Assembly: GCF_027627475.1 (NCBI RefSeq)
Contig: NZ_CP115484.1
Coordinates: 2,836,001-2,900,000, forward strand
DNA length: 64,000 nt
Source of the DNA: Paenibacillus sp. SYP-B4298
Lineage (GTDB): Bacteria; Bacillota; Bacilli; Paenibacillales; Paenibacillaceae
Direction of reading: 5' to 3'
The notes under the pieces were generated by a model. It saw only the letters and a list, made by a program, of their open reading frames with translations. It did no database searches and was not told the DNA's origin. Shown one piece after another: positions 14,653-40,855 of this stretch. Position 1 is the stretch's first letter, and each line of letters opens with the position of its first letter. The position numbers and the translations under genes are program-made.

Positions 14653-14774
14653 CATGTATAGCCGCCCCGCAATTCGGACATCATGTAGATATGGCATCGC
14701 GAGATGCCGTAAGACAACCGCGGAGAAGACTTACGTTTCCCCATAAGCTCTTCGTCCGGTTTCTCCTCTCCCAT
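14652..14774 (-). CDS. Candidate 40-residue small protein or structured small RNA
   Basis: A short frame starting MGEEKPDEELMGKRKSS and ending MMSELRGGYT. AGGAG lies about 10 bases before the ATG, and a strong terminator begins at the last base of the stop codon. The amidase upstream has its own terminator, so the unit would be transcribed separately; a weak TTGGTT/CATAAA promoter with spacing near 17 is possible around 14815-14843. The coding stretch contains an inverted repeat GGCATC...GATGCC (14693-14708). A second hairpin, GACCACTCC with GGGGTGGTC, lies just upstream (14780-14803). These structures suit a small RNA as well as a peptide. I do not recognise the peptide. Confidence 0.4.
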   Translation of the reverse strand: MGEEKPDEELMGKRKSSPRLSYGISRCHIYMMSELRGGYT

Positions 14775-14901
14775 ATTTAGACCACTCCTGCAAAGGGGTG
14801 GTCGCTTTTATGTGTAGAACAAAAATAGAACCAACCACCACACCAACATTCGAGGCGATTTTTTGCATAGTCGGTCGGTTCTTCCATTTATATATGTAGA
14901 A

Positions 14902-28161: not shown

Positions 28162-28217
28162 AAAAACAGAATCACCATCCCTGATCGCCGACTCGGCGGT
28201 TCGGGTATGGTGATTCT
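28162..28217 (-). terminator. Terminator of the surface-protein operon
   Basis: An 11-base perfect stem (AGAATCACCAT with ATGGTGATTCT), with a second small stem (GCCGA/TCGGC) inside the loop, is followed on the minus strand by GTTTTTGG. It lies 14 bases after the SLH gene stop codon and closes the five-gene operon. Confidence 0.88.
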
Positions 28218-28230
28218 AAATTTGATCTGA

Positions 28231-29589
28231 TTAGTTCAAGGCGAGCGCCTGGAGGATGACAGCCGCAGCTTCCGCCCGCGTAGCCAATCCTTTTGGACGC
28301 AGAGAACCGTCCTTATAGCCGCTCATAATGCCGTTGGACGATACCGCGGCAACTGCCTTTTGCGCCCAGGCTGCAATGTCGGCGCTATCCGTGAACGAGC
28401 TTTCGGCTTCAACCTCAGACAGCTTGGCAGCCTTGGCAATCATCACCGCCATCTGCTCACGTGTAATGAGATCATTAGGCCCAAATCGTTCGGCGCTGTA
28501 GCCATTGACGATGCCGGCCTCCACAGCAGCCGCGATCGCGTCCTTCGCCCAGTGCGAAGCGGTATCCTCGAACGCAGCGCTGCCCTTCGCCTCCAGCTTG
28601 TACGCCTTGGTCAGCACCGACACAAACTCCGCGCGGGTAATATTATTATTCGGCTTGAAGGTGCCGTCGGGATAGCCGCTAATCGCGTTCAGTGCAACGA
28701 GCTTCTGGATCGGAGCCGCAGCCCAGTGGCCGCTGATGTCCGTCAGAACCGGAGTAGACGGCTTCGGATCGCTCGGGAGCTTCTCGGAGAGAACGGCAAA
28801 TTTGGTAAAATGGTTCACGGTTCCCGAGAGCGTGCGTGTCGCCCAATTGACCTGCTGATTGTCAAGCGGAACCCAGATGCCCTTGGTCTCATCGAGCCAA
28901 CCGATGACCACTTTATGGGTGCTCAGGGTAATGCCTGACACGCTGATTGGCAAGGTGATCGTGATCGGCTTCAGGAAATTGCCGCTCTTGTCCTTCGTAA
29001 TTTCAAATACATCGCTTGCTAGCACCTGTTCTGCAGGAACCGGAAGCTTCGATGTATCCGCGACCTTCACAACGGTAATGCGCATGCTGCTGTCCAGCGC
29101 CGCGGCAGGTATATCGATGACTGCACCGTTCAGCACAGCCTGACCGCCCGCAACCTGAATCTGCTGGCTGTTGCTTGGTGTCGACGTGGAGGCATCTCCT
29201 CCGCCTCCGCCGCCACCGCCACCGCCAGTGGAGCCGCCAGAGGTCGAGGCTGCCTTCACCTCGAACGGATCGGAGGCAACGTCTGTTCCTTGGCCGACCG
29301 CCGCCGTATAGGTGCCCAGCGTTGCCCCGGCAGGCAGCTTGATGGATACCGAATACGTGCCGCCGCTTGTCTTCACGACATCATAATAGAGCACGGTATT
29401 GTTCGGTGCAACAACCTTGACAATCACTTCTGAATAGCTGGATGATCCGGCGATCGTAATCGTATCCCCAGGCACCTTGCTCGTAATATCCGTAATCGTG
29501 ACATTATTCGGGGCCGCCCATGCATGACCCGGAATGGCTGCCAGCAGGAGCACCGCAATAATCATTAGATGGAACCAACGTTTGTTCAC
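28231..29589 (-). CDS. Secreted surface protein with three SLH domains
   Basis: Exported cell-wall-binding protein of about 452 residues. I prefer the GTG at 29589, which has AGAGG upstream and gives a clean signal peptide (KRWFHLMIIAVLLLAAIPGH, cleavage after AWA); an ATG at 29610 has no ribosome binding site. After an N-terminal beta domain (NNVTITDITSKVPGDTITI) comes a ten-glycine linker. Next is a ZU5-like beta domain (LNGAVIDIPAAALDSSMRIT). Three S-layer homology motifs fill the last 170 residues (DISGHWAAAPIQKLV, DTASHWAKDAI, DSADIAAWAQKAV). SLH motifs bind pyruvylated wall polymer. It is the last gene of the operon, after the giant protein, and may be its surface anchor or partner. Confidence 0.9.
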   Translation of the reverse strand: MNKRWFHLMIIAVLLLAAIPGHAWAAPNNVTITDITSKVPGDTITIAGSSSYSEVIVKVVAPNNTVLYYDVVKTSGGTYSVSIKLPAGATLGTYTAAVGQGTDVASDPFEVKAASTSGGSTGGGGGGGGGGDASTSTPSNSQQIQVAGGQAVLNGAVIDIPAAALDSSMRITVVKVADTSKLPVPAEQVLASDVFEITKDKSGNFLKPITITLPISVSGITLSTHKVVIGWLDETKGIWVPLDNQQVNWATRTLSGTVNHFTKFAVLSEKLPSDPKPSTPVLTDISGHWAAAPIQKLVALNAISGYPDGTFKPNNNITRAEFVSVLTKAYKLEAKGSAAFEDTASHWAKDAIAAAVEAGIVNGYSAERFGPNDLITREQMAVMIAKAAKLSEVEAESSFTDSADIAAWAQKAVAAVSSNGIMSGYKDGSLRPKGLATRAEAAAVILQALALN

Positions 29590-29667
29590 GCCATGTTTCC
29601 TCTCTTTCATGGAATCATCGAACCCGGCCCTGCGGCCAGGTTCGATGGACAAGGATATAACCAGGGA

Positions 29668-32600
29668 TTAGTTCAGAACAACCGGATCGGCCAGCGCATT
29701 GCCCACTTCCGTGAAGCTGCCGCTGTAGGCGTCCGCTACAAACACTTTTACGGAGTAGTTGGCGCCAGATACGTTGAAGTGAGCCTTCAACTCCTCGGCA
29801 GAAGCCACATCCTTCTCCAGCACCACAATGCTGACCGGCTCATTGCCGCGCATCAGTTGGAAGATAACCACCTCATTGCCGCTGTGAGTCATACCCGCAG
29901 TAGGCGAGACGGTCACCTTCGCCAGTACACCATTGGTGGTTGTCAGCGAGCCATCGCTGATGACGAACGGCTTCGCTCCCTCGGCAGCATAAGCAACCGT
30001 GGCCTTGTCGCTCTCCTCCAGACCTGCCCGGGTGACAGACACCAGAACCGTACCGCCACCTGTTCCCAGTTGCGCGACGGTAACGGTAGCCGAAGTCGCC
30101 TGAGCGCCAACCGTCTCTGTGCCCAGCAGTACATTCAAGGCACTGTATACGCGCACGACATCGCCAGCTTGCAAGCCGCCAACCTCAATCGTATCCGACT
30201 GATTCTGCTCGCGGTTGACGACCAAAATATTCGCCGCAGCAGGCTGTGACGTTTTCACGCGCTTCAGCACCGTGACTGTAAAGCTCTTCGTCTCCGTCAC
30301 ATTGCCCTTCGTAATCGTCGCTGTCAGCGTCACCGCCTTGTCGCCGGACGCATTCGCCGGGCGCGTCACCGTGCCGATTGCCGCGATCACATTCGCATCG
30401 CTCGTTGCCCAGGCGATCGTTGTGCCACTCGCTCCGCTGAGCGGCAGCGTCAGATTGCCCGTCACCGCCGAGGCTGTCTCATTGCCTGTGAAGCCGATCG
30501 CCAGCGCCGTCTTGTCGGCTGCTACCGATTCGTTATCGTTCAGCGCCGATTGCTTCAACACGTTCACGATGAACTGCTTCGTCTCCGTCACATTGCCCTT
30601 CGTAATCGTCGCTGTCAGCGTCACGGCCTTGTCGCTGGACGTATTCGCCGGGCGCGTCACCACGCCGCTCGCCGCGATCACATTCGCATCGCTCGTTGCC
30701 CAGGCGATCGTTGTGCCACTCGCTCCGCTGAGCGGCAGCGTCAGATTGCCCGTCACCGCCGAGGCTGTCTCATTGCCTGTGAAGCCGATCGCCAGCGCCG
30801 TCTTGTCGGCTGCTACCGATTCGTTATCGTTCAGCGCCGATTGCTTCAACACGTTCACGATGAACTGCTTCGTCTCCGTCACATTGCCCTTCGTAATCGT
30901 CGCTGTCAGCGTCACGGCCTTGTCGCTGGACGTATTCGCCGGGCGCGTCACCACGCCGCTCGCCGCGATCACATTCGCATCGCTCGTTGCCCAGGCGATC
31001 GTTGTGCCACTCGCTCCGCTGAGCGGCAGCGTCAGATTGCCCGTCACCGCCGAGGCTGTCTCATTGCCTGTGAAGCCGATCGCCAGCGCCGTCTTGTCAG
31101 CTGCTACCGCCTCGCTATCGTTCAGCGCCGATTGCTTCACCACGTTCACGATGAACTGCTTCGTCTCCGTCACATTGCCCTTGGTGATCGTCGCTGTCAG
31201 CGTCACGGCCTTATCGCTGGACGTATTCGCCGGGCGCGTCACCACGCCGCTTGCCGCGATCACATTCGCATCGCTCGTTGCCCAGGCGATCGTTGTGCCA
31301 CTCGCTCCGCTGAGCGGCAGCGTCAGGTTGCCCGTCACTGCCGAGGCTGTCTCATTGCCTGTGAAGCCGATCGCCAGCGCCGTCTTGTCGGCTGCTACCG
31401 ACTCGCTATCGTTCAGCGCCGATTGCTTCAACACGTTCACGATGAACTGCTTCGTCTCCGTCACATTGCCCTTGATGATCGTCGCCGACAACGTGATCGC
31501 CTTATCGCCAGCCGTATGCGCGGGTCGGGTCACTGTGCCATTTAGCGAGATGACATTCGCATCGCTGGACAGCCAGGCAATCGTCGTGCCGTTCGCTCCA
31601 GCCGTCGGCAGGGTAAGATTGCCGCTTACGGCAGACTCTGTATCTGTACCGGAGAAGCCGAGTGCAAGCGCCGCCTTGTCCGCTGCTGCCGACTCCGCAT
31701 CATTCAGTGTGAGCTGCTTGAGCACCGTCACTGTGAATAGCTTCGTTTCGGTCTCTCCGCCCTTCGTAATCGTTGCCGTCAAGGTGACCGTCTTGTCTCC
31801 CGCAGTGAAGGCCGGACGGGTGACCGTGCCATCAGCCGCAACAACCGTCGTATCACTAGATGTCCAGGTGACGACCGAGCCATTCGCTCCTGCCGTCGGC
31901 AAGCCCAGAGGGTTAACCACTCCTGCCGCCGTATCTGCTCCGTTATAGGTCAGGCGAAGCGCAGCCGCGTCCTCCTCCACTGCTTCCGCATCATTATACT
32001 GATCCAGCCGCAGAACATTCAGCGTAAATTCCTTCGTCTGCGTTGAGGCGCCCTTGGCAATCGTCGCCGTCAGCTTGACGATCGCATTGCCTGCCTTGCG
32101 TGCAGGGCGGCTCACCTCGCCTGTAGTCGACACGACATCCTCATCCGCGGAGGCCCATGTAATCGTCGTGCCATAATCGCCAGCGACTGGCAAGGTCAGA
32201 TCGCCTGTCACCGACGCTGCCGAATTGCTGCCGGAATAGCCGATATTCAAGGCAGATGCATCGGCGCCAACCGCTTCCGCATCGGTGATGTCGTTTTTGA
32301 CGACGATAATGACGAATTGCTTCGTTCTCGTCTGGCCCTGGTAGCTCAGCGTCGCCTTCAAGGTAACGGCTGCATCCCCATCCAGGTACGCAGGGCGGGT
32401 GACTTCGCCAAGAGCGCCTGCACCCGAATCGACATTGACATACGACTTGCTCGATTCCCAGGTAATGACTGAACCGCCCACGCCACTCACCGGCAGCGTC
32501 AGATGACCCAGCACCTCGCTTGGCGAATCGCCACTGGCAAAACCGATCTGTAGCGCATTGGCGTCACGCGCCAGCGTCCCCTGATCGATGGCCGCGTCCA

Positions 32601-35600
32601 GCGCGTCCTGGATGCTGGCCTTGTCCGCATAGCCGTTCGTAACCGGCGCGGCCAGACGCACCTGATTGGCTGCCTCCAGCTTGTCCGCAGCGCTGAGCAG
32701 GTTGAAATCGGTCAGATCCAGCCCAAGGCTGACATCTGTCAGTGCGGCAAGAGCTGCGGAATCGGTTGCGGCAATATTAACCGCGGCAACTGGTTGACGA
32801 TCGAGCACCGCCTGATCAAAGGCCGCTTGAATCGCATTCTGATCAGCATAGCCTGCACCTGCTGGAATCCCTGCCAATACATCCGCCGAAATCGCGAGCT
32901 GGTCCGCCATCTTCCACTGGTTTGCAGGGCTGAGATTAAGACCAAGGCTCATATCGCCCAGCGCTGTACCCATAGCCAAGGCGCTCGTTGCCAGGTTGAC
33001 CGCCGCAATCGGCTGACGAGCCGTTACAGCGGAATCGAAGGCACTCTGCACCGCTGCCCAGTCCGCGAAGCCCGGATACCCCCCGCCAGGACGCGCAGCA
33101 TGCACCGCAGCAGCGACAGCCTCGCGGTCATTGGTGAGCCAGCTCGTGAACACGCCCTGATCCAGCCCCTCCGGCTCTGTAGCGAGCACCGTCAGGATGT
33201 CTGCGCCAGATGCAGCCAGGTTCAGCGCGGCAATCGGCTGACGATCGGTCATCTTGGCCGAGAATTCCGCAGCCAGTGCGCCCGTATCTGCGTAGCCGTC
33301 CGCCGGGCGGGCCGCTACGAGCGCAGCCGACACAGCAGCCTGGTCAATAGCCACCCAGCCGCCATACACGGTCAGATCGAGCGTTAATTCAGTCTCGTAG
33401 GCGTTCAGAACGAGATCCATCTCATCCTCATCCGCAGCCAGGTTGACCGCTGCCAGCGGTGTGCGAGCCGTAACCGCGTCATTAAATTTCAACTGAATAT
33501 CAGACAACGCAGCATAGCCCGTGCCTACGTCCGCCAGCACAACGCCTGCCACGTAGAGCTGATCCTCTGTGCTCCAATTATCAAAATTATTCCGTACCAG
33601 ACCAAGCGTATTCGACTTCAGCGCAGCCAGCATTGCTGCCTCATCTGCCGCAGCGTTCACCGCAACGATCGGCTTGCGTGCGTCGATTCCATCTTCCAGC
33701 GCGGTCTGCACCGCTGCCTTGGTTGCATAGCCAGTGCCCCGGTTAGTCCGAACATATTCAGCTACCGCCAGCTTGTCCACATCGAGCCAGCCTGCGTACT
33801 CGTCCAGCGTCAGCGCAAGCGTTGCATCCTCGATCGCTGTCTTCATCTGAGCAGCACTGGCCGCCGCATTGACCGCCGCCATCGGAGCATCCGCAGCAAT
33901 CGCCGCCGCCAGTGCGCTCTGCACCGCTGCGACATCGGCATAGCCAGATGCAGGACGCTCATCGACCAGATAAGCAGACACGAGCAGCCGGTTCGCATCG
34001 GAAGGGAGTGCGTCATAAGCGGTACGGTCAAGCCCTGTAATCGCTTCGACAGCCGTCTTCGCCGCGGCCCCCGTCGTCGCCAGATTCAATTCAGCAATCG
34101 GCTGTCTGGCCGTTACCTTCGCATTCAGTGCCGCCTGTATTGCAGCCTTGTCCGCATAGCCAGTCGTATCCGCTGCTTGATCTGCCAGCAGTCCGGCAAG
34201 CACCGCATCGACGTCGACGGCAAGCCAGCCCGAGTAGCCGGAAACATTCAGATTGAGCGTGGCCCCCTCCAGCGCAAGCCTCAGCTCTGCTTCTGTAGCG
34301 GCGCTGTTGACGGCCGCCTCCGGCTCGCGATTGTTAACCGCCGCATTAAAGGCCGTCTGCACATTAGCCAGCATCGTCCAGGAGCCTCCACCACGGATCG
34401 AGATTACGATCGCAGCCGCAGCCGTCTGATCCGCAGGCTTCCAGTTCTCGTAGATGCCTTGAACCAACCCAAGATCGACTGCCTCCAGCGCCGTCTCCAT
34501 CGATGCTTCGTCAGCAGCGATATTGACCGCCTGAATGGCATTCGCCAGATCCAGCGCCGCTTGAACAGCAGCCTTGTTCTCAAAGCCGTCCAGCGGACGA
34601 TTATCGGCAACAATAGCTGCAATCTGCGTGCCATACGTAGCATATAGTGCGCCAAGGGTGAGATTCAGCGCCGCGTCAGTCAACGCAGCATCCATCTCTG
34701 TTGCATTCGTCGCAGCATTGACCGACGCCAGCGGCATCACATCACTAACCGCCGTATTGAACGCGGCCTGCACTGCGGCTTGATCCGCAAATCCGATCGT
34801 TGGAACATTCGCAAGGACATGAGCCGACACCGCTGCCTTGTCTGCACTCTTCCAGCCGCTCCAGTGCGTCCCGAGATTCAAGGCCAGATCGTTATCCTCC
34901 AGCGCAGCCTGCATCGCGGCTTCATCGACCGCAAGGTTCACAGCCGCTACCGATGCGCGCGCATCAACCGCACTATCAAATACCGTCACGATCGCCGCCT
35001 TGGTAGCAAAAGCTCCATTAGAGGTACGATGCTGAAGTACACTGCTCGCTACCGCTGTCCGATCTGCAGATTTCGTATAGCTGGTATAGAGCGCATTGGC
35101 AGGGAGCGCCAGATCGGCATCCTCAAGTGCCAACTGCATCGCCGCTGCATCTGCCGCCAGGTTGACACTCGCCAGCGGTGCTCTGTTCAGCTCCGCCGCG
35201 TCGAACACCAGCTCGGCAGCCGGGCCGCTCACATATCCATCGGATGGACGAGCATCCAGCACCTCCTGGGCAACCGCCAGTTTATCGACATTATCCCATG
35301 CTGCAGGCGGCAGCAGATTAATTCCCGCCAGCGCTGTCAGCATCGCTGCCGCGTCAGCAGACAGATTGACCGTTGCAACAGGCGTTCGGTTCGTTACAGC
35401 CGTGTCAAATGCCGTCTGTACAGCGGCCTGATCGATATAGCCGTCTCCAGAGCGGGCGCTCTGCACCGCATCAGCCACCGCATTGCGGTCAGCCGTCAGC
35501 CAGGTCGAATACACGCCTGGCGTCAAGCCCAGCAGAGCAGCTTCCAGCGCTGCGCGCATCGCGGCTGTGTCGCCTGCCAGGTTGACCGCTGCCAGCGGCG

Positions 35601-36897
35601 CATTGGCGGCAAGCGCTGCATCGAGCGCCGCTTGAACCGCAGCCTTGTCAGCAAACCCTCCGCCTGGGCGAGCAGCAAGCACTGCATCCGCTACCGTGTT
35701 TTTATCATTAAGCAGCAGGCCGTTATACGTGTCCAGAGAGAGTCCCAGCACGACAGCCGTCAACGCGCTCTTGATGCTGCCCCGATCCGCCGCCGCGTTG
35801 ACCACATCCACCGCCTGGCTGATCTGCTCCGCTGCTACATGCACACTCAGCGCTGCCTGAATAGCCGGCTGATTGGCAAAGCTGCCATCCGCTGTCCTTT
35901 GATTCAGCATCGCTTGTGCCGCCGCCAGCCTGTGCGCCGCATTCAGCTTGTAGTACTCGACAAGATCCAGACCAAGCCCGGCTGCCTCGAGCGCCGACTT
36001 CATCTCTGCAGCGTCAACAGCGCCGTTCACGACCGCCACAGCGGCAGCATAGGCCGCCTCCATTGCCTTGAGCGTGACCAGCTCGTTGAGCTTTGTCTGA
36101 ATCGCATTTTTATCCGCGAATGCGCCGTTGCTCTGCTTTTCATCGTACATTTGCTGTGCGACCGCCAAGCGATCGGTGGCATTCAGATTTTGGTAGGAGG
36201 TCAAAATAAGTCCGAGGTAAGGGTCGCCCAGTGCTGTTGCCAGCGCATTGGCATCGGCGGCCTGATTGACTCCCGCTACAGCCGTTGCCAGTGCTTCCGC
36301 ATCAAGCGCCTCTTGTACAGCATCGTTGAGCCAGTTCTGGATGTCCGTCTGGCTGGTAAAGCTGCCCCCTTGATTGGTGCGATGCTGAAGCATCAGTGCT
36401 GCCGCATTCAGCTTGCCATCCGGTGTGCTCAGATTGTTGTACGTGGTCAAGATCAGCCCAAGCGCCGTGCTTTCCAGTGCGGTTCTCATCTCGGAGGCGG
36501 TGGCCGCATTGTTCACCGCCGCGATCGCATTGGCCAGCAGCTCGATATTTTGCCGATCGGAAACATACGTATTCAACTGCTCCTGAATGTCCTGCTGAGT
36601 GGCATAACCGCCGCCGGGACGACTATCGATCATACTTTGCGCTACAATGGCTTGCCCTTGAGCGCTCAGCGTGCCGTAGCTCGTCAGGTTAAGTGCCAGA
36701 TCGGGGCGGGCGAGCGCCGTCTGCATCTCAGCGGCGGTGGCCGCATTGTTCACATCGGCTATCGCAGCCAGCTCATCTGCACTGGCCACAGGTGCCGGAA
36801 TCAGCGAGACGACCGAGGAGACCGCAATGGCGGCCGACATCATCGCAGCCACATTTTTAGTTAAAGGCTTGTGCTCATCACTTTTCTTATTGGACAT
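29668..36897 (-). CDS. Giant secreted repeat protein (2409 residues)
   Basis: An exported modular protein. A signal peptide (MMSAAIAVSSVVSLIPAPV, cleavage after ASA near residue 40) is followed by 19 copies of a 65-80-residue helical repeat. The pattern is VNxAADxAAMxxALE, then LGL..Y, then D..AVA..V...RP..GYADKAAVQAALD. After about residue 1430 come eight Ig-like modules of about 97 residues (LTLPLSGASGTTIAWATSD, then VTRPANTSSDKAVTLTATIT), the last four nearly identical. A unique 190-residue beta-rich end ends at DPVVLN. No LPxTG or SLH motif is present, so it must be held by a partner or released. AGAGAGG precedes the ATG. I do not recognise the helical repeat; adhesion or S-layer-like structure is a guess. 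Confidence 0.85.
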   Translation of the reverse strand: MSNKKSDEHKPLTKNVAAMMSAAIAVSSVVSLIPAPVASADELAAIADVNNAATAAEMQTALARPDLALNLTSYGTLSAQGQAIVAQSMIDSRPGGGYATQQDIQEQLNTYVSDRQNIELLANAIAAVNNAATASEMRTALESTALGLILTTYNNLSTPDGKLNAAALMLQHRTNQGGSFTSQTDIQNWLNDAVQEALDAEALATAVAGVNQAADANALATALGDPYLGLILTSYQNLNATDRLAVAQQMYDEKQSNGAFADKNAIQTKLNELVTLKAMEAAYAAAVAVVNGAVDAAEMKSALEAAGLGLDLVEYYKLNAAHRLAAAQAMLNQRTADGSFANQPAIQAALSVHVAAEQISQAVDVVNAAADRGSIKSALTAVVLGLSLDTYNGLLLNDKNTVADAVLAARPGGGFADKAAVQAALDAALAANAPLAAVNLAGDTAAMRAALEAALLGLTPGVYSTWLTADRNAVADAVQSARSGDGYIDQAAVQTAFDTAVTNRTPVATVNLSADAAAMLTALAGINLLPPAAWDNVDKLAVAQEVLDARPSDGYVSGPAAELVFDAAELNRAPLASVNLAADAAAMQLALEDADLALPANALYTSYTKSADRTAVASSVLQHRTSNGAFATKAAIVTVFDSAVDARASVAAVNLAVDEAAMQAALEDNDLALNLGTHWSGWKSADKAAVSAHVLANVPTIGFADQAAVQAAFNTAVSDVMPLASVNAATNATEMDAALTDAALNLTLGALYATYGTQIAAIVADNRPLDGFENKAAVQAALDLANAIQAVNIAADEASMETALEAVDLGLVQGIYENWKPADQTAAAAIVISIRGGGSWTMLANVQTAFNAAVNNREPEAAVNSAATEAELRLALEGATLNLNVSGYSGWLAVDVDAVLAGLLADQAADTTGYADKAAIQAALNAKVTARQPIAELNLATTGAAAKTAVEAITGLDRTAYDALPSDANRLLVSAYLVDERPASGYADVAAVQSALAAAIAADAPMAAVNAAASAAQMKTAIEDATLALTLDEYAGWLDVDKLAVAEYVRTNRGTGYATKAAVQTALEDGIDARKPIVAVNAAADEAAMLAALKSNTLGLVRNNFDNWSTEDQLYVAGVVLADVGTGYAALSDIQLKFNDAVTARTPLAAVNLAADEDEMDLVLNAYETELTLDLTVYGGWVAIDQAAVSAALVAARPADGYADTGALAAEFSAKMTDRQPIAALNLAASGADILTVLATEPEGLDQGVFTSWLTNDREAVAAAVHAARPGGGYPGFADWAAVQSAFDSAVTARQPIAAVNLATSALAMGTALGDMSLGLNLSPANQWKMADQLAISADVLAGIPAGAGYADQNAIQAAFDQAVLDRQPVAAVNIAATDSAALAALTDVSLGLDLTDFNLLSAADKLEAANQVRLAAPVTNGYADKASIQDALDAAIDQGTLARDANALQIGFASGDSPSEVLGHLTLPVSGVGGSVITWESSKSYVNVDSGAGALGEVTRPAYLDGDAAVTLKATLSYQGQTRTKQFVIIVVKNDITDAEAVGADASALNIGYSGSNSAASVTGDLTLPVAGDYGTTITWASADEDVVSTTGEVSRPARKAGNAIVKLTATIAKGASTQTKEFTLNVLRLDQYNDAEAVEEDAAALRLTYNGADTAAGVVNPLGLPTAGANGSVVTWTSSDTTVVAADGTVTRPAFTAGDKTVTLTATITKGGETETKLFTVTVLKQLTLNDAESAAADKAALALGFSGTDTESAVSGNLTLPTAGANGTTIAWLSSDANVISLNGTVTRPAHTAGDKAITLSATIIKGNVTETKQFIVNVLKQSALNDSESVAADKTALAIGFTGNETASAVTGNLTLPLSGASGTTIAWATSDANVIAASGVVTRPANTSSDKAVTLTATITKGNVTETKQFIVNVVKQSALNDSEAVAADKTALAIGFTGNETASAVTGNLTLPLSGASGTTIAWATSDANVIAASGVVTRPANTSSDKAVTLTATITKGNVTETKQFIVNVLKQSALNDNESVAADKTALAIGFTGNETASAVTGNLTLPLSGASGTTIAWATSDANVIAASGVVTRPANTSSDKAVTLTATITKGNVTETKQFIVNVLKQSALNDNESVAADKTALAIGFTGNETASAVTGNLTLPLSGASGTTIAWATSDANVIAAIGTVTRPANASGDKAVTLTATITKGNVTETKSFTVTVLKRVKTSQPAAANILVVNREQNQSDTIEVGGLQAGDVVRVYSALNVLLGTETVGAQATSATVTVAQLGTGGGTVLVSVTRAGLEESDKATVAYAAEGAKPFVISDGSLTTTNGVLAKVTVSPTAGMTHSGNEVVIFQLMRGNEPVSIVVLEKDVASAEELKAHFNVSGANYSVKVFVADAYSGSFTEVGNALADPVVLN
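30250..31413 (-). repeat. Tandem 291-base repeats in the giant gene
   Basis: Four in-frame copies of a 291-base unit encoding an Ig-like module of 97 residues. Unit boundaries recur at 30541, 30832, 31123 and 31414, exactly 291 bases apart. The three inner copies differ at only a few positions; the copy nearest the 3' end of the gene differs more. Such identity implies recent duplication or gene conversion and makes copy number likely to vary between strains. Confidence 0.92.
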
Positions 36898-36951
36898 GGG
36901 TTAGACCTCTCTTTTTTGGCATATAAAATCCCGTTCGATGACAAACACAAT

Positions 36952-37347
36952 TTAATTCACCTGCAATACATGCCATTCGTCTGTGCCGAAGCGCACGAGA
37001 CACACTGTCTGCTCTACGCTCCGCTTCCCCGAAGAATGCTGCTCGAACACATCAAGATAGACACGAAAGATCGGCTCCTCACCGTAGGTGACAACCATCT
37101 CGGACTGCAGAGCATACCCGCGCTTCAATCCGGGACGTCTGCCAGAGCCGGGGGCGCCGTATTCGTCCAGATAGCGGGCAGCCGTTCGTATAATTCGCAG
37201 TTGCTCTCCCAGCTCCAGCTTATCTATGGTCTGAATCATTTCCTCCTGCTGCGCTTCCTCCGAAGCGCCCTCGCACTGCTGGGTGACAGGCTCCGATGCT
37301 GCGGCGCTTCTCTCTGACATGAGCCATGACGATAACCGGTGGATCAT
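36952..37347 (-). CDS. Cytosolic protein of unknown function in the surface-protein operon
   Basis: A 131-residue protein with no signal peptide. The ATG at 37347 has GGAGGG six bases upstream. The N-terminal half is helical and acidic (SEEAQQEEMIQTIDKLELGEQLRII). The C-terminal half looks like a small beta-rich domain (MVVTYGEEPIFRVYLDVFEQ and QTVCLVRFGTDEWHVLQVN), possibly of the cystatin or NTF2 type. It lies between the two secreted repeat proteins and downstream of the SecA-like gene. In accessory Sec loci small cytosolic proteins help target the substrate. That role here is an inference; I do not recognise the family. Confidence 0.6.
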   Translation of the reverse strand: MIHRLSSWLMSERSAAASEPVTQQCEGASEEAQQEEMIQTIDKLELGEQLRIIRTAARYLDEYGAPGSGRRPGLKRGYALQSEMVVTYGEEPIFRVYLDVFEQHSSGKRSVEQTVCLVRFGTDEWHVLQVN

Positions 37348-37380
37348 GCCGCTCCCTCCCCTCACTTCATATCTGAATGG

Positions 37381-38055
37381 TTAGGACAGCGATACGATCG
37401 CGGTATTGAGCGCCTGCTGCAGCGCCGCACGGCTCGGGAATCCTCCCGCAGGAGCCGCAGCCCGCACCGCCTCAGCGACAGCTTGCTTCTGCTCGGGGGT
37501 CAATTTCCGGTAATGCAGCATAACAAGCCCCAAATACGGGGATTCCAGTGCACGCTGGAGTTGAGTCGAATCGCCCGAGGAATTGACTGCCACAAGCGCA
37601 TCACGCAGCACCGCCGCATCGCGCTGAGCTGCCACCGCCCGGTTCAACGCCTCCTGCACAGCCGCCGAATCCCCCAGCGGAACGCCGCTGCTGAGCAGCG
37701 CCTCAGCCGCCGCCGCCCGATCTTGCTCCGACAAGGCGTTATAGGCTGTCAGATTCAGGGCCAGCTCCGCTGCCTCAAGCGTGCTCTGCAGCTCGGATGC
37801 GGTCGAAGCGCTATTCAGCTTGTCCAGCGCCTGCACAACGGGCGAGGTAGTCTGCGGCAAGGCATTGAAGACGCTTTCAGTCTGTTCTCCCGAATCTGCG
37901 GGCGACAGTCCGTTCGCTGCCACCTCCGCTGTTGTAATGCCGGAGGACAGCAGCGGCGCCGCAACTGCAGCCGCCAGCGTCAACGTCAGCGCCTTGGCTG
38001 CGCGCTTGCCTTTTGCGGCGTGTGTATTGGATTTGCTCTCGTATCTTTTGGTCAC
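37381..38055 (-). CDS. Small secreted protein sharing the helical repeat of the giant protein
   Basis: A 224-residue exported protein starting with GTG. Its signal peptide has a long basic n-region (KRYESKSNTHAAKGKRAAK) and the core ALTLTLAAAVAAPLLSSG. Two copies of the helical repeat seen in the giant protein follow: LDKLNSASTASELQSTLEAA with LNLTAYNALSEQDRAA, and ALVAVNSSGDSTQLQRALES with LGLVMLHYRKLTPEQKQAVA. It may be a minor subunit that packs against the giant protein through the same fold. It comes directly after the SecA-like gene (49-base gap). Confidence 0.78.
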   Translation of the reverse strand: MTKRYESKSNTHAAKGKRAAKALTLTLAAAVAAPLLSSGITTAEVAANGLSPADSGEQTESVFNALPQTTSPVVQALDKLNSASTASELQSTLEAAELALNLTAYNALSEQDRAAAAEALLSSGVPLGDSAAVQEALNRAVAAQRDAAVLRDALVAVNSSGDSTQLQRALESPYLGLVMLHYRKLTPEQKQAVAEAVRAAAPAGGFPSRAALQQALNTAIVSLS

Positions 38056-38104
38056 AGGTGATCGCCTCTTTCTTCTATAGATCTATCGAATTCCCGGATC
38101 AGCG

Positions 38105-40357
38105 CTACGCTGTTCCCTGCAGCAGCGCTGCCCGGCTTTCCTGCTCTCGAATGACGGCCTTGGCTATAAAGCGATGGTATCTGCGAACAAAGAGGGTATG
38201 GAGCCGATAAGCCTCCTCCTCGTACACCTGCACGAGATCCCGGGATTCCAGCGCCCGAAAATGAATCCCTTGCCTGATCATAGCAAGCTGCTCCATATGC
38301 TCCATCCAGTACTGATCGAGCTGGCGCAAGCAGCGCAGACGCCATCCACGGCGCCATGTCTGCAGCTCCTGCTGCTCCACAAAGCGGGCCCATCCAGGCT
38401 CCCACAGCAGTCTGAGCTGCTCTGCCATCTTGCCCGTCGTCATCTCCGGATCGGCATGCAGCCCTTCCAGACGGAATTCCTGGCCAAGCTGGCGCAGCTT
38501 CCATTCCTCAACCATTCGCTCGGGCGGGCATAGCCGCAGTGTGCACTGATCCATCCATTGCTCAACCGAGCGCTGCAGAGCCGACTCAATCCGGTCGGTC
38601 AGCAGCAGCTCGTCCCGGCTGGCATAGAACCACTCCCGCTGACGGTGCGTCACACTGTCCAGACGGAATAATAGCGAACGGATGGCATACATATGCTGCT
38701 CCGCCCGCTGCTGCACCCGGTCGGCGAATTCCAGCAGCTCCTTGGACGATACCCCATCCTCGCCCCAGCGCCAATTGCTCTGCCAACGCTCTGCCTCATC
38801 GCGGGCAAAACGCTGGAACAGCTCATCCTCCAGCGAGATATAAAATTGCGACCGACCCGGATCGCCTTGCCTGCCCGACCGCCCGCATAGCTGCAGATCG
38901 ATTCTGCGGCTCTCGTTCCTCTCCAGTCCGATGACATGCAGCCCGCCACGTTGCGCTACGCCATCCGCAAGACGAATATCCGCGCCGCGACCCGCCATAT
39001 TCGTGGCAATGGTGATCTTGGACAGCTCGCCAGCTCCGCTAATAATATCCACTTCCTCCTGCTCCGTTCGGGCATTCAGCAGTTGGAACGACAGACCCGC
39101 GCGCGACAGTCGCTCAGCCAACTGCTCGGACTGCTGCACCGTCACCGTACCGATCAGCACCGGCACCCCCTTGTCCTGCAAGGCAGCGATGTCCTGAACA
39201 AGACGGCTCAGCTTCGCCTCCCTGGTTGCGAACACCAGATCAGGAGCATCCACCCTCATAACCGGCTTATGCGTCCGAATCGGAGCAACCTCCAGGCCGT
39301 AGATGTGAAGCAGCTCCTCCTTGGCATCCTGCAGCGTGCCGGACATACCGCTGAGCTGTGCATACAAGCTGAAATACTTCTGTACCGAAATCGACGCATG
39401 GGTCAGCGTTTCCTCGCTCAGCTCCAGCCCTTCCTTCATCTCAATCGCTTGCTGCAGACCATCGCCGAATTCCCGGCCCTCCAGCACCCGGCCTGTATAG
39501 GCATCAATAATGCCTACCTTGCCCTCAGCAATCAGATAGTCTCTGTCTGCCCTCATGAGGACATGCGCTCGCAAGCATTGGAGCAGAGCATGATAAAAGG
39601 ACACATGCTCCGGGTCAAACAGATTGTCAATCTGGAAGATGGCCTCCACTCTGCTGATACAGCGATCCGAGAACGAAACCTGGTTCGTCTCATAATCGCA
39701 TTCGTAGTCCGTTCCTTCCCGAAGCCCTCGAACAAAACGATTGCAAATATGCCATAAATCAGGAGCGCTCCTTGATTTGGAAGCAATGACAATCGGCGTG
39801 CGCGCTTCGTCGATCAGAATGCTGTCGATTTCATCGATGATTGCGCAGGCAAGCCCGCGCTGCACCCGCTTGTCCGGCTCATCCACCAGATGATCCCGCA
39901 AATAGTCGAAGCCAAACTCCGACCACGTGCCATAGGTCACATCACAGCTATAAGCAGCCTGCTTCTCGTCTGCCGTAAGCTCCGCCCGGTTCAAGCCCAC
40001 CGTAATGCCCAGCAACTGCATAACCTTGGCGGCCTGAAGATAATCACGCTCCGCCAGATACGGATTGGCGGTGATCATATGTACGCCTCTTCCCTGAGCG
40101 GCAAACCAGAAGAGCGGAATAAGTGAAGCAAGCGTCTTCCCTTCTCCTGTCTTCATCTCGGCAACCTTGCCGCTGATCATCTCGCAGCCGCCCTCCAGTT
40201 GCTCGTTATGCAGCAAGTAGCCGATAGAGCGCCTGATCGCCTCCTTGACGAGCGCAGCCGCCACACAGAGGTCATGCTCAGCGGCTTTCCCGGATTGGAG
40301 CAGCTTCGCAAGCTGATCCTTGTGACCGATAAGCTCTTGATCGGACAAACAGCGCAT
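38105..40357 (-). CDS. SecA-like preprotein translocase ATPase (accessory SecA)
   Basis: A 750-residue SecA homologue. Walker A is AEMKTGEGKTLASL near residues 66-79; Walker B is IIDEIDSILIDEARTPIV near residue 170. Also present are the SecA signatures YGTWSEFGFDYLRDHL, NMAGRGADIRL and LCGRSGRQGDPGRSQFYISL. The C-terminal zinc-binding tail of housekeeping SecA is absent, and the scaffold helix ends at LRQGIHFRALESRDLVQVYE, so it resembles SecA2-type ATPases. Homology seems to continue upstream of the ATG (LALINSKFEL in frame) without a standard start codon, so the true start is uncertain. As first gene of the operon it probably powers export of the repeat and SLH proteins. Confidence 0.85.
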   Translation of the reverse strand: MRCLSDQELIGHKDQLAKLLQSGKAAEHDLCVAAALVKEAIRRSIGYLLHNEQLEGGCEMISGKVAEMKTGEGKTLASLIPLFWFAAQGRGVHMITANPYLAERDYLQAAKVMQLLGITVGLNRAELTADEKQAAYSCDVTYGTWSEFGFDYLRDHLVDEPDKRVQRGLACAIIDEIDSILIDEARTPIVIASKSRSAPDLWHICNRFVRGLREGTDYECDYETNQVSFSDRCISRVEAIFQIDNLFDPEHVSFYHALLQCLRAHVLMRADRDYLIAEGKVGIIDAYTGRVLEGREFGDGLQQAIEMKEGLELSEETLTHASISVQKYFSLYAQLSGMSGTLQDAKEELLHIYGLEVAPIRTHKPVMRVDAPDLVFATREAKLSRLVQDIAALQDKGVPVLIGTVTVQQSEQLAERLSRAGLSFQLLNARTEQEEVDIISGAGELSKITIATNMAGRGADIRLADGVAQRGGLHVIGLERNESRRIDLQLCGRSGRQGDPGRSQFYISLEDELFQRFARDEAERWQSNWRWGEDGVSSKELLEFADRVQQRAEQHMYAIRSLLFRLDSVTHRQREWFYASRDELLLTDRIESALQRSVEQWMDQCTLRLCPPERMVEEWKLRQLGQEFRLEGLHADPEMTTGKMAEQLRLLWEPGWARFVEQQELQTWRRGWRLRCLRQLDQYWMEHMEQLAMIRQGIHFRALESRDLVQVYEEEAYRLHTLFVRRYHRFIAKAVIREQESRAALLQGTA

Positions 40358-40855
40358 CAGCTCGAACTTGGAATTAATGAGTGCAAGCCTGTCTCTGCGC
40401 GCCTTTCTATGGCCTCCAAACCACCCGAGGCGCCTTTCCCTCCCATACCGACCTATACGTGATCACTCTCCCCGGCCAAGGCGTCCCATTACAACCTTTG
40501 TCCTATTACCCCAGACTATTTAATGATAAAAATAGTACAACTATAAATATCGGTATAATAAATCAATAACTTTAGTACTATTTTTTTGCGTTATTGTATA
40601 ATTTCCTATCCCAACACCCTATATTTTTATGTCGAATTTAATCGATTATAGTCATAAAGAATCATAATTCAATGACCTATTCCGAAGTGTTATACTTCAT
40701 TGTACGATGGACATCGTCCCCCTCGACTCCGCTACACAAAATAATGTGAAATGAAGAGGGGCAGGACTAGATTTCAATACCAATTTGTGATATGCTATTT
40801 TAGTGTTTATTTGCAGCGGTGTTGTAGCAGCAGTATTTGAAGGAGGTGTATCTCA
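40358..40855. other. AT-rich divergent promoter region of the surface operon and rpmB
   Basis: About 500 bases, the part from 40500 markedly AT-rich against the GC-rich surroundings. It must carry promoters in both directions. An 11-base inverted repeat (40528-40585) is listed separately. The rpmB ribosome binding site GAAGGAGG lies at the right end. I saw no gene here. The first 110 bases on the minus strand are open in the frame of the SecA-like gene. Confidence 0.6.
40528..40585. promoter_or_regulatory. Widely spaced inverted repeat before the SecA-like gene
   Basis: AAAAATAGTAC (40528-40538) and GTACTATTTTT (40575-40585) are perfect inverted copies, 47 bases from centre to centre. The AT-rich spacer contains promoter-like words on the minus strand (TATAGT at 40540-40545, TATACC at 40552-40557). 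It looks like a pair of operator half-sites flanking the operon promoter. Confidence 0.55.

Follow-up and report, generated by a model that had tools for sequence, protein, structure and literature searches.

The question raised by the locus described here is whether a giant surface protein can leave the cell, and be held on it, by a route of its own. The locus lies in a 64,000-nt stretch of the chromosome of Paenibacillus sp. SYP-B4298 (order Paenibacillales; contig NZ_CP115484.1, positions 2,836,001 to 2,900,000), hereafter called the window, and consists of five co-directional genes on the minus strand, in the order secA2, short repeat protein, 131-aa (amino acid) protein, 2409-aa giant, and SLH protein. 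Our answer, which rests on sequence comparison and to which we assign a probability of about 0.68, is that these genes form an accessory export system of the SecA2-only kind, with dedicated cargo, selection through the signal peptide, passage through SecYEG, and docking on an SLH anchor. One kind of giant surface protein would probably be both exported and attached in this way, by its own route.

A second SecA and its putative small partner

The first gene encodes a SecA2-type ATPase of 750 aa from its ATG (38105..40357, minus strand; frame open to 40462), assigned from its Pfam SecA domains (SecA DEAD, cross-linking, P-loop, and wing/scaffold), a sub-cut-off match to TIGR04397, and its place in the SecA tree. 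The 6.26-Mb, single-contig window genome (handle G000) has two SecAs over the Pfam cut-off, the window copy at 294 bits and a second copy at 449 bits, as well as two more SecA_DEAD matches that fall under the family cut-off; the 449-bit copy is a separate housekeeping SecA of 847 aa at 4.52 Mb, with zinc tail and 40% identical to the window protein. A sequence-only reading of the window had described a SecA homologue without the C-terminal zinc tail and had proposed looking for a separate housekeeping secA. The description holds, and the objection that the genome might contain no other secA falls away. The tail is absent from all seven SecA2s that are linked to a gene for the 131-aa protein (window included), and present in 14 of the 17 housekeeping rows that were compared. 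By its sequence features (a second SecA, motor and preprotein domains, and a short C-terminus), the window protein is a SecA2.

The SecA tree comprised 41 rows: 7 linked SecA2s, 17 housekeeping SecAs (14 from the order and 3 others), 9 SLAP-linked SecA2s, and two groups of 4 that are only loosely labelled SecDF-group and “dGTPase-group”, SecDF having been read in three of four loci and dGTPase in two of four. The linked SecA2s form a single clade in this tree and in a second one, built without an outgroup and holding 6 linked rows (100/100 in both). In the 41-row tree, the clade lies outside both the housekeeping SecAs and the B. anthracis/SLAP type, and the window SecA2, whose position the sequence-only reading had wished to see in a tree, groups with no housekeeping SecA. 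No second SecY was found in the eight genomes that carry the 131-aa family; SecY was matched once in each of them, so that none has the SecA2/SecY2 pair.

Those eight carriers were identified with a profile of the 131-aa protein (36952..37347, minus strand, from ATG 37347), which matched 8 of the 392 genomes searched from the order. An intact secA2 stands beside the small gene in seven of the eight (the window genome, G112, G175, G232, G240, G242, and G361), and a C-terminal remnant in the eighth (G251); the co-occurrence in relatives that the sequence-only reading had wished to see checked is found for these two genes. The protein, by reading, lacks a signal peptide, in agreement with its earlier description as small and cytosolic, and its AlphaFold2 model predicts an N-terminal helix followed by a helix and antiparallel strands, an arrangement that may resemble the cystatin/NTF2-like fold. 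No model in Pfam or NCBIfam matches the family, its hhalign probability against SLAP is 0.2%, and its hidden Markov model (HMM) returned a best E of only 0.54 in 1417 open reading frames (ORFs) of 35 SLAP- or SecA-bearing loci. It may be a new partner family, in a comparison that covered Pfam, NCBIfam, and SLAP. The protein had been offered as a dedicated targeting factor; the adjacency to secA2 in 7 of 8 genomes fits a partner or targeting role and falls short of proof. A bolder proposal is that the family is a new export targeting factor that reads a private signal-peptide address together with its own SecA2 clade, and that address, motor, reader, giant, and anchor move between bacteria as a unit, with free exchange of the giant's middle. 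We advance it tentatively, at somewhat less than even odds.

Cargo, signal peptides and proposed anchor

The giant (29668..36897, minus strand; 2409 aa) is composed of a signal peptide, 19 helical repeats, an aBig_2 array, and a C-terminal domain (CTD), as delineated by Pfam and a repeat HMM. The 19 repeats, each of about 73 aa, span residues 44-1441 (32575..36768, minus strand), and two more make up, together with a signal peptide, the short secreted protein of 224 aa from GTG (37381..38055, minus strand; repeat HMM domain E 4e-13 and 1.8e-19). A model of a repeat pair is all-helical (mean pLDDT 96.8), with the helix continuous from repeat to repeat, which suggests that the repeats build a rod, so that the exported protein may have the shape of a fibre. 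The sequence-only reading had noticed an unrecognised helical repeat common to two secreted proteins. This is upheld by the 19 and 2 copies and their predicted helicity, but the C-terminal half of the giant consists of aBig_2 domains known to Pfam. A further protein with two copies of the repeat (G000:C1:7480-7905) was seen elsewhere in the window genome (locus L147, G000:C1:3500-13500); it is 1093 aa long with a dockerin-like end, and the gene next to it, by reading, encodes a protein that combines a cohesin-like part with SLH.

The 73-aa helical repeat is, by sequence comparison, one of four interchangeable cargo middles, for the seven intact loci hold four unrelated kinds. The first, with 73-aa repeats and aBig_2, occurs in the window, G112, and G242, where the cargo comprises the short protein, with its two repeats, and a giant in which many such repeats precede aBig_2 (by reading in G242); more than 20 repeats were counted in G112 and in G242, among at most 29 candidates scored per genome. 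The second consists of Ig-like repeats, by reading, in G175 and G232; the third is a GDGQDP repeat in G361; and the fourth, in a 4918-aa frame of G240, has SbsC_C and other domains.

The signal peptides do not follow the middles. That of the giant (36763..36897, minus strand), defined by alignment and a profile (E 1.5e-17 in G000), belongs to a type that is common to all seven intact loci, with a K-rich start, an Ala/Thr/Met/Ser core, and a V-V-x-x-L-P-like end over roughly 40-50 residues (by reading); the short protein of the window fits it least. A matrix trained on six signal peptides of the window, G112, and G242 was run against 2166 distinct N-terminal frames from both strands of all loci examined, many of which are not genes. 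It put the cargo of G240 in 2nd place and that of G361 in 5th; the sole frame ranked over G240 turned out to be the start of the G232 cargo. Likewise, a signal-peptide profile, searched like the CTD profile in 78 genomes (the 8 carriers and 70 non-carriers), gave E <= 1.6e-11 in 7 of the 8 carriers (10 hits) and, outside cassette cargo, a best E of 0.0022; 12 of the 70 non-carriers had a match at E <= 0.1. Hydrophobicity is also lower in the eight cargo signal peptides than in the six from SLH partners, and the two sets do not overlap (p 0.002). Since the middles are unrelated while the signal-peptide type is constant, the choice of cargo can hardly rest on the middle.

At its other end, the giant bears the CTD of about 90 aa (29671..29949, minus strand), which was delimited by alignment and genome search and is found also on otherwise unrelated cargo: cargo proteins from the window, G361, and G112 share it, with that of G240 more distant, and it is present in 8 of 8 carriers. 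The giant has no SLH domain according to Pfam. Such domains are found in the last protein of the cassette (28231..29610, minus strand; frame from TTG 29652, likely start ATG 29610), which has a hydrophobic signal peptide, a conserved N-domain, and three C-terminal SLH domains (Pfam SLH 3.7e-48), as the sequence-only reading had it. With three SLH domains by Pfam and a signal peptide by reading and hydropathy, it has what a wall anchor is expected to have. The SLH gene lies 3' of the cargo gene in all seven intact loci, and the N-domain is shared by six of the partners (those of the window, G361, G112, G175, G232, and G242), at 32-48% identity over matched parts; in G240, the cargo has the CTD together with an apparent dockerin at its end, and an S8 protease domain is found in the SLH protein that comes next. 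Across cassettes, then, the CTD and the SLH partner are constant by sequence, if less exclusively so than SecA2, the 131-aa protein, and the signal peptide.

Taken as a whole, these features would fit the following course of events. SecA2, probably with the 131-aa protein, would recognise the Ala/Thr/Met/Ser-rich signal peptide and drive the long cargo through the ordinary SecYEG channel, which is proposed because the genome has one SecY; export of the giant would thus depend on this ATPase. Outside the cell, the cargo would be a long surface protein with a middle that varies between strains. Its CTD would dock on the co-encoded SLH protein, which is itself probably exported by the housekeeping SecA, in keeping with its more hydrophobic signal peptide, and which three SLH domains would fix to the wall polymer.

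Layout and spread of the cassette

All five long frames are open, the 2409 codons of the giant included, and the intergenic gaps measure about 15-57 nt, a value that varies with the start codons chosen. The five-gene set of the sequence-only reading is thus in place, in one direction and with small gaps. G112, which belongs to another family, has the identical five genes in identical order at another chromosomal place, and since it repeats both the set and the order there, the arrangement is not due to chance. The cassette ends in an intrinsic terminator hairpin (about 28167..28218, minus strand) of -34.3 kcal/mol with a U run downstream (z -4.25; 0 of 200 shuffles equally stable), which confirms the single strong terminator that had been predicted. 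Upstream of secA2, a consensus scan (10/12) found a promoter-like site, TTGAAT-16-TATAAT (40645..40672, minus strand), on weak evidence. The neighbours, read by eye, are presumably a divergent rpmB on one side and co-directional asp23 and fakA on the other. Elsewhere in the window, a ylbH leader RNA was matched at 14718-14811 (minus strand, 66.2 bits).

The history of the cassette appears to differ from that of its hosts. In the 41-row tree, the SecA2s of the window and of G242 form a pair (98/96), while the housekeeping SecA from G242 groups with those of G175 and G232; because these pairings conflict and because the flanking genes differ among the cassettes of the window, G112, G361, and G240, the evidence points to horizontal transfer.

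Other SecA homologues came to light in the same searches. At four loci (L134 in G005, L135 in G066, L136 in G003, and L137 in G240), a SecA paralogue without zinc tail is 51-57% identical to housekeeping SecA and adjoined by glycosyltransferase-like genes. Three of the four (G005, G066, and G240) also have a SecDF-like gene and an SLH protein, and L136 has collagen-like GATGAT-type repeats; by sequence, these paralogues are another putative accessory system in relatives. A SecA-like paralogue of about 770 aa with a reduced C-terminal region is widespread in the order (L138, L139, L140, L141, and many more genomes), with a dGTPase-like gene next to it in L138 and L139. Finally, eight contigs of the viral collection IMG/VR (L047-L054) carry SecA homologues, possibly on bacterial flanks.

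Competing explanations and known systems

A number of findings weigh against a dedicated SecA2-only route. What argues most strongly against a strict partnership with SecA2 is G251, where the small gene is intact although the secA2 beside it is reduced to a remnant (locus L059, G251:C1:5518590-5519024). Gene order varies, the small gene standing before secA2 in G242; the short protein was seen in only three of seven loci; in G175, G232, and G242, the front and back of the cargo gene lie on different contigs and were assigned to each other by one kind of repeat present at both; and the SLH protein of G240 lacks the shared N-domain. The zinc tail is also missing from 3 of the 17 housekeeping rows, so that its loss alone is a weak criterion for a SecA2. 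On the signal-peptide matrix, the true G361 cargo (15.4) is outscored by a CTD protein in G046 (17.7), by the near-copy of that protein in G033 (17.9), and by one reverse-frame ORF (17.4), and the ten strong profile hits all belong to sequences from which the profile was built. Hydropathy fails to set the cargo signal peptides apart from those of 15 CTD proteins in genomes that lack this SecA2 (p 0.10), and by LIFVW count the difference is weak as well (p 0.025). The 73-aa repeat was matched in 28 of 198 genomes searched, 25 of them with 1-3 copies, and the CTD occurs in 19 of 70 non-carriers, at up to 88 bits vs 78 in carrier G242.

The case of G251 is what one would look for if the 131-aa protein were a cargo chaperone or regulator working with any SecA, and SecA2 a capacity booster without substrate selection. 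The CTD protein next to it fits as well: the signal-peptide profile reaches only E 0.087 in this genome, and the signal-peptide core of that protein is hydrophobic (KD 2.91 vs 1.83-2.18 in eight cargo signal peptides), as expected if, in this one case, it had returned to the ordinary export route. In the seven other carriers, however, the small gene adjoins an intact secA2 of one clade, and the special signal peptide is strong in those seven only among the 78 genomes, which makes such a division of labour unlikely. Much the same doubt attaches to the idea that the signal peptide and CTD are relics of cargo ancestry, with middles swapped by recombination and no export or docking code at all. 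Cargo genes do occupy the same cassette position, three of seven cargo proteins (window, G112, and G242) are plain homologues, and the CTD is, by the non-carrier count above, a common surface domain in the order; yet the CTD proteins of non-carriers have diverse signal peptides, and in G112 and G242 a related signal peptide is found on the short protein with two repeats, which lacks the CTD (the relation is weaker in the window).

Less probable still is that the cassette is a divergent S-layer export locus of the B. anthracis SecA2/SLAP type, even though TIGR04397, the B. anthracis-type model, is the best NCBIfam model for the window SecA2 and the 41-row tree makes the SLAP-linked SecA2s neighbours of the linked clade (97/94). 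The score is 790.9 bits (794.2 in the genome search) against a curated cut-off of 1085 and 1282-1361 for nine SLAP-adjacent SecA2s, although two rows classed as housekeeping (G853 and G839) pass at 1093-1094, so the cut-off is imperfectly specific. Kinship with the SLAP group is tentative because long branches meet and, without an outgroup, it is not judgeable. No match to SLAP (TIGR04399) was obtained in G000, the small family is unrelated to it by profile comparison, and the cargo has no SLH domain. Membership of TIGR04397, SLAP, or SecA2-SecY2 was rejected on the sub-cut-off score, the lack of a SLAP match in G000, the profile comparison with SLAP, and the single SecY match. SLAP is itself not strictly tied to a second SecA, since it occurs in family f168 with a single SecA that branches among housekeeping SecAs; f168 genomes G853, G839, G822, G938, and G967 have several SLAP-family proteins and one matched SecA each. 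About as improbable is decay of the window copy to the point of lost function, irrespective of what the cassette does in other genomes. Two points that also count against the main reading would speak for decay: conserved N-terminal sequence continues upstream of ATG 40357 (40357-40462) without a standard in-frame start (by eye), and the ATPase motifs, otherwise intact, have motif VI changed from LRGR to LCGR. One SLAP-linked SecA2 has LKGR at this position. A short out-of-frame ORF (by eye) terminates at the SecA2 ATG, and a rare start codon and a truncated copy, both considered, may each account for this 5' end. Against decay, the five long frames have all stayed open.

The SecA2-only export system that we favour resembles, by analogy, the SecY2-free SecA2 systems of clostridia and bacilli in its working. 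In B. anthracis, slaP, slaQ, and secA2 support the secretion of S-layer proteins (PMC9277125), and the cassette is similar in having a second SecA, a partner gene next to secA2, as SLAP is in 9 of 9 SLAP-type tree rows, and surface cargo. It differs in a SecA2 under the TIGR04397 cut-off, a partner unrelated to SLAP by hhalign, and a giant cargo that lacks SLH and is accompanied by a separate SLH protein. The earlier likening to SecA2-only S-layer export with different substrates therefore stands as regards a second SecA, one SecY, and cargo unlike SLH S-layer proteins, but not as membership of the TIGR04397/SLAP type. In C. difficile, SecA2 is needed for S-layer proteins and CwpV (PMC3297441) and has been suggested to bind SecYEG (PMC7503281); it is 54% identical to SecA1 (PMC7503281), compared with 40% for the cassette SecA2 and its housekeeping counterpart, and the available portions of the two sources describe neither a small partner nor a signal-peptide class, both of which the cassette has.

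Like the streptococcal SecA2/SecY2/Asp system, the cassette appears to combine a dedicated motor, a dedicated large adhesin, accessory proteins, and a cargo-specific targeting region (streptococcal features from PMC3297441), but unlike it, the cassette genomes have no second SecY, and the signal peptide of GspB is 90 residues long (PMC3297441) rather than the length seen here. Nor does any of the five genes of the cassette encode an Asp protein or a glycosyltransferase, which were not searched for elsewhere in the genome, and the remark that no SecY2, glycosyltransferase, or Asp genes accompany the locus is borne out to that extent. Finally, mycobacterial SatS is a cytosolic protein that serves a subset of SecA2 cargo (PMC6333443), and the 131-aa protein, also cytosolic and beside a SecA2, is proposed to have a comparable role; SatS, however, with a predicted 46 kDa and what is described as a new fold (PMC6333443), is set apart by description from the small protein of the cassette, with its possibly cystatin-like arrangement.

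With a single SecA2 clade, partner family, and signal-peptide type set against four unrelated cargo middles, these loci make up a clean natural set, in which the problem of cargo selection becomes directly testable, and they suggest a modular display of very long proteins on Gram-positive cells. If true, the cassette would be a natural plug-in display system for proteins thousands of residues long.

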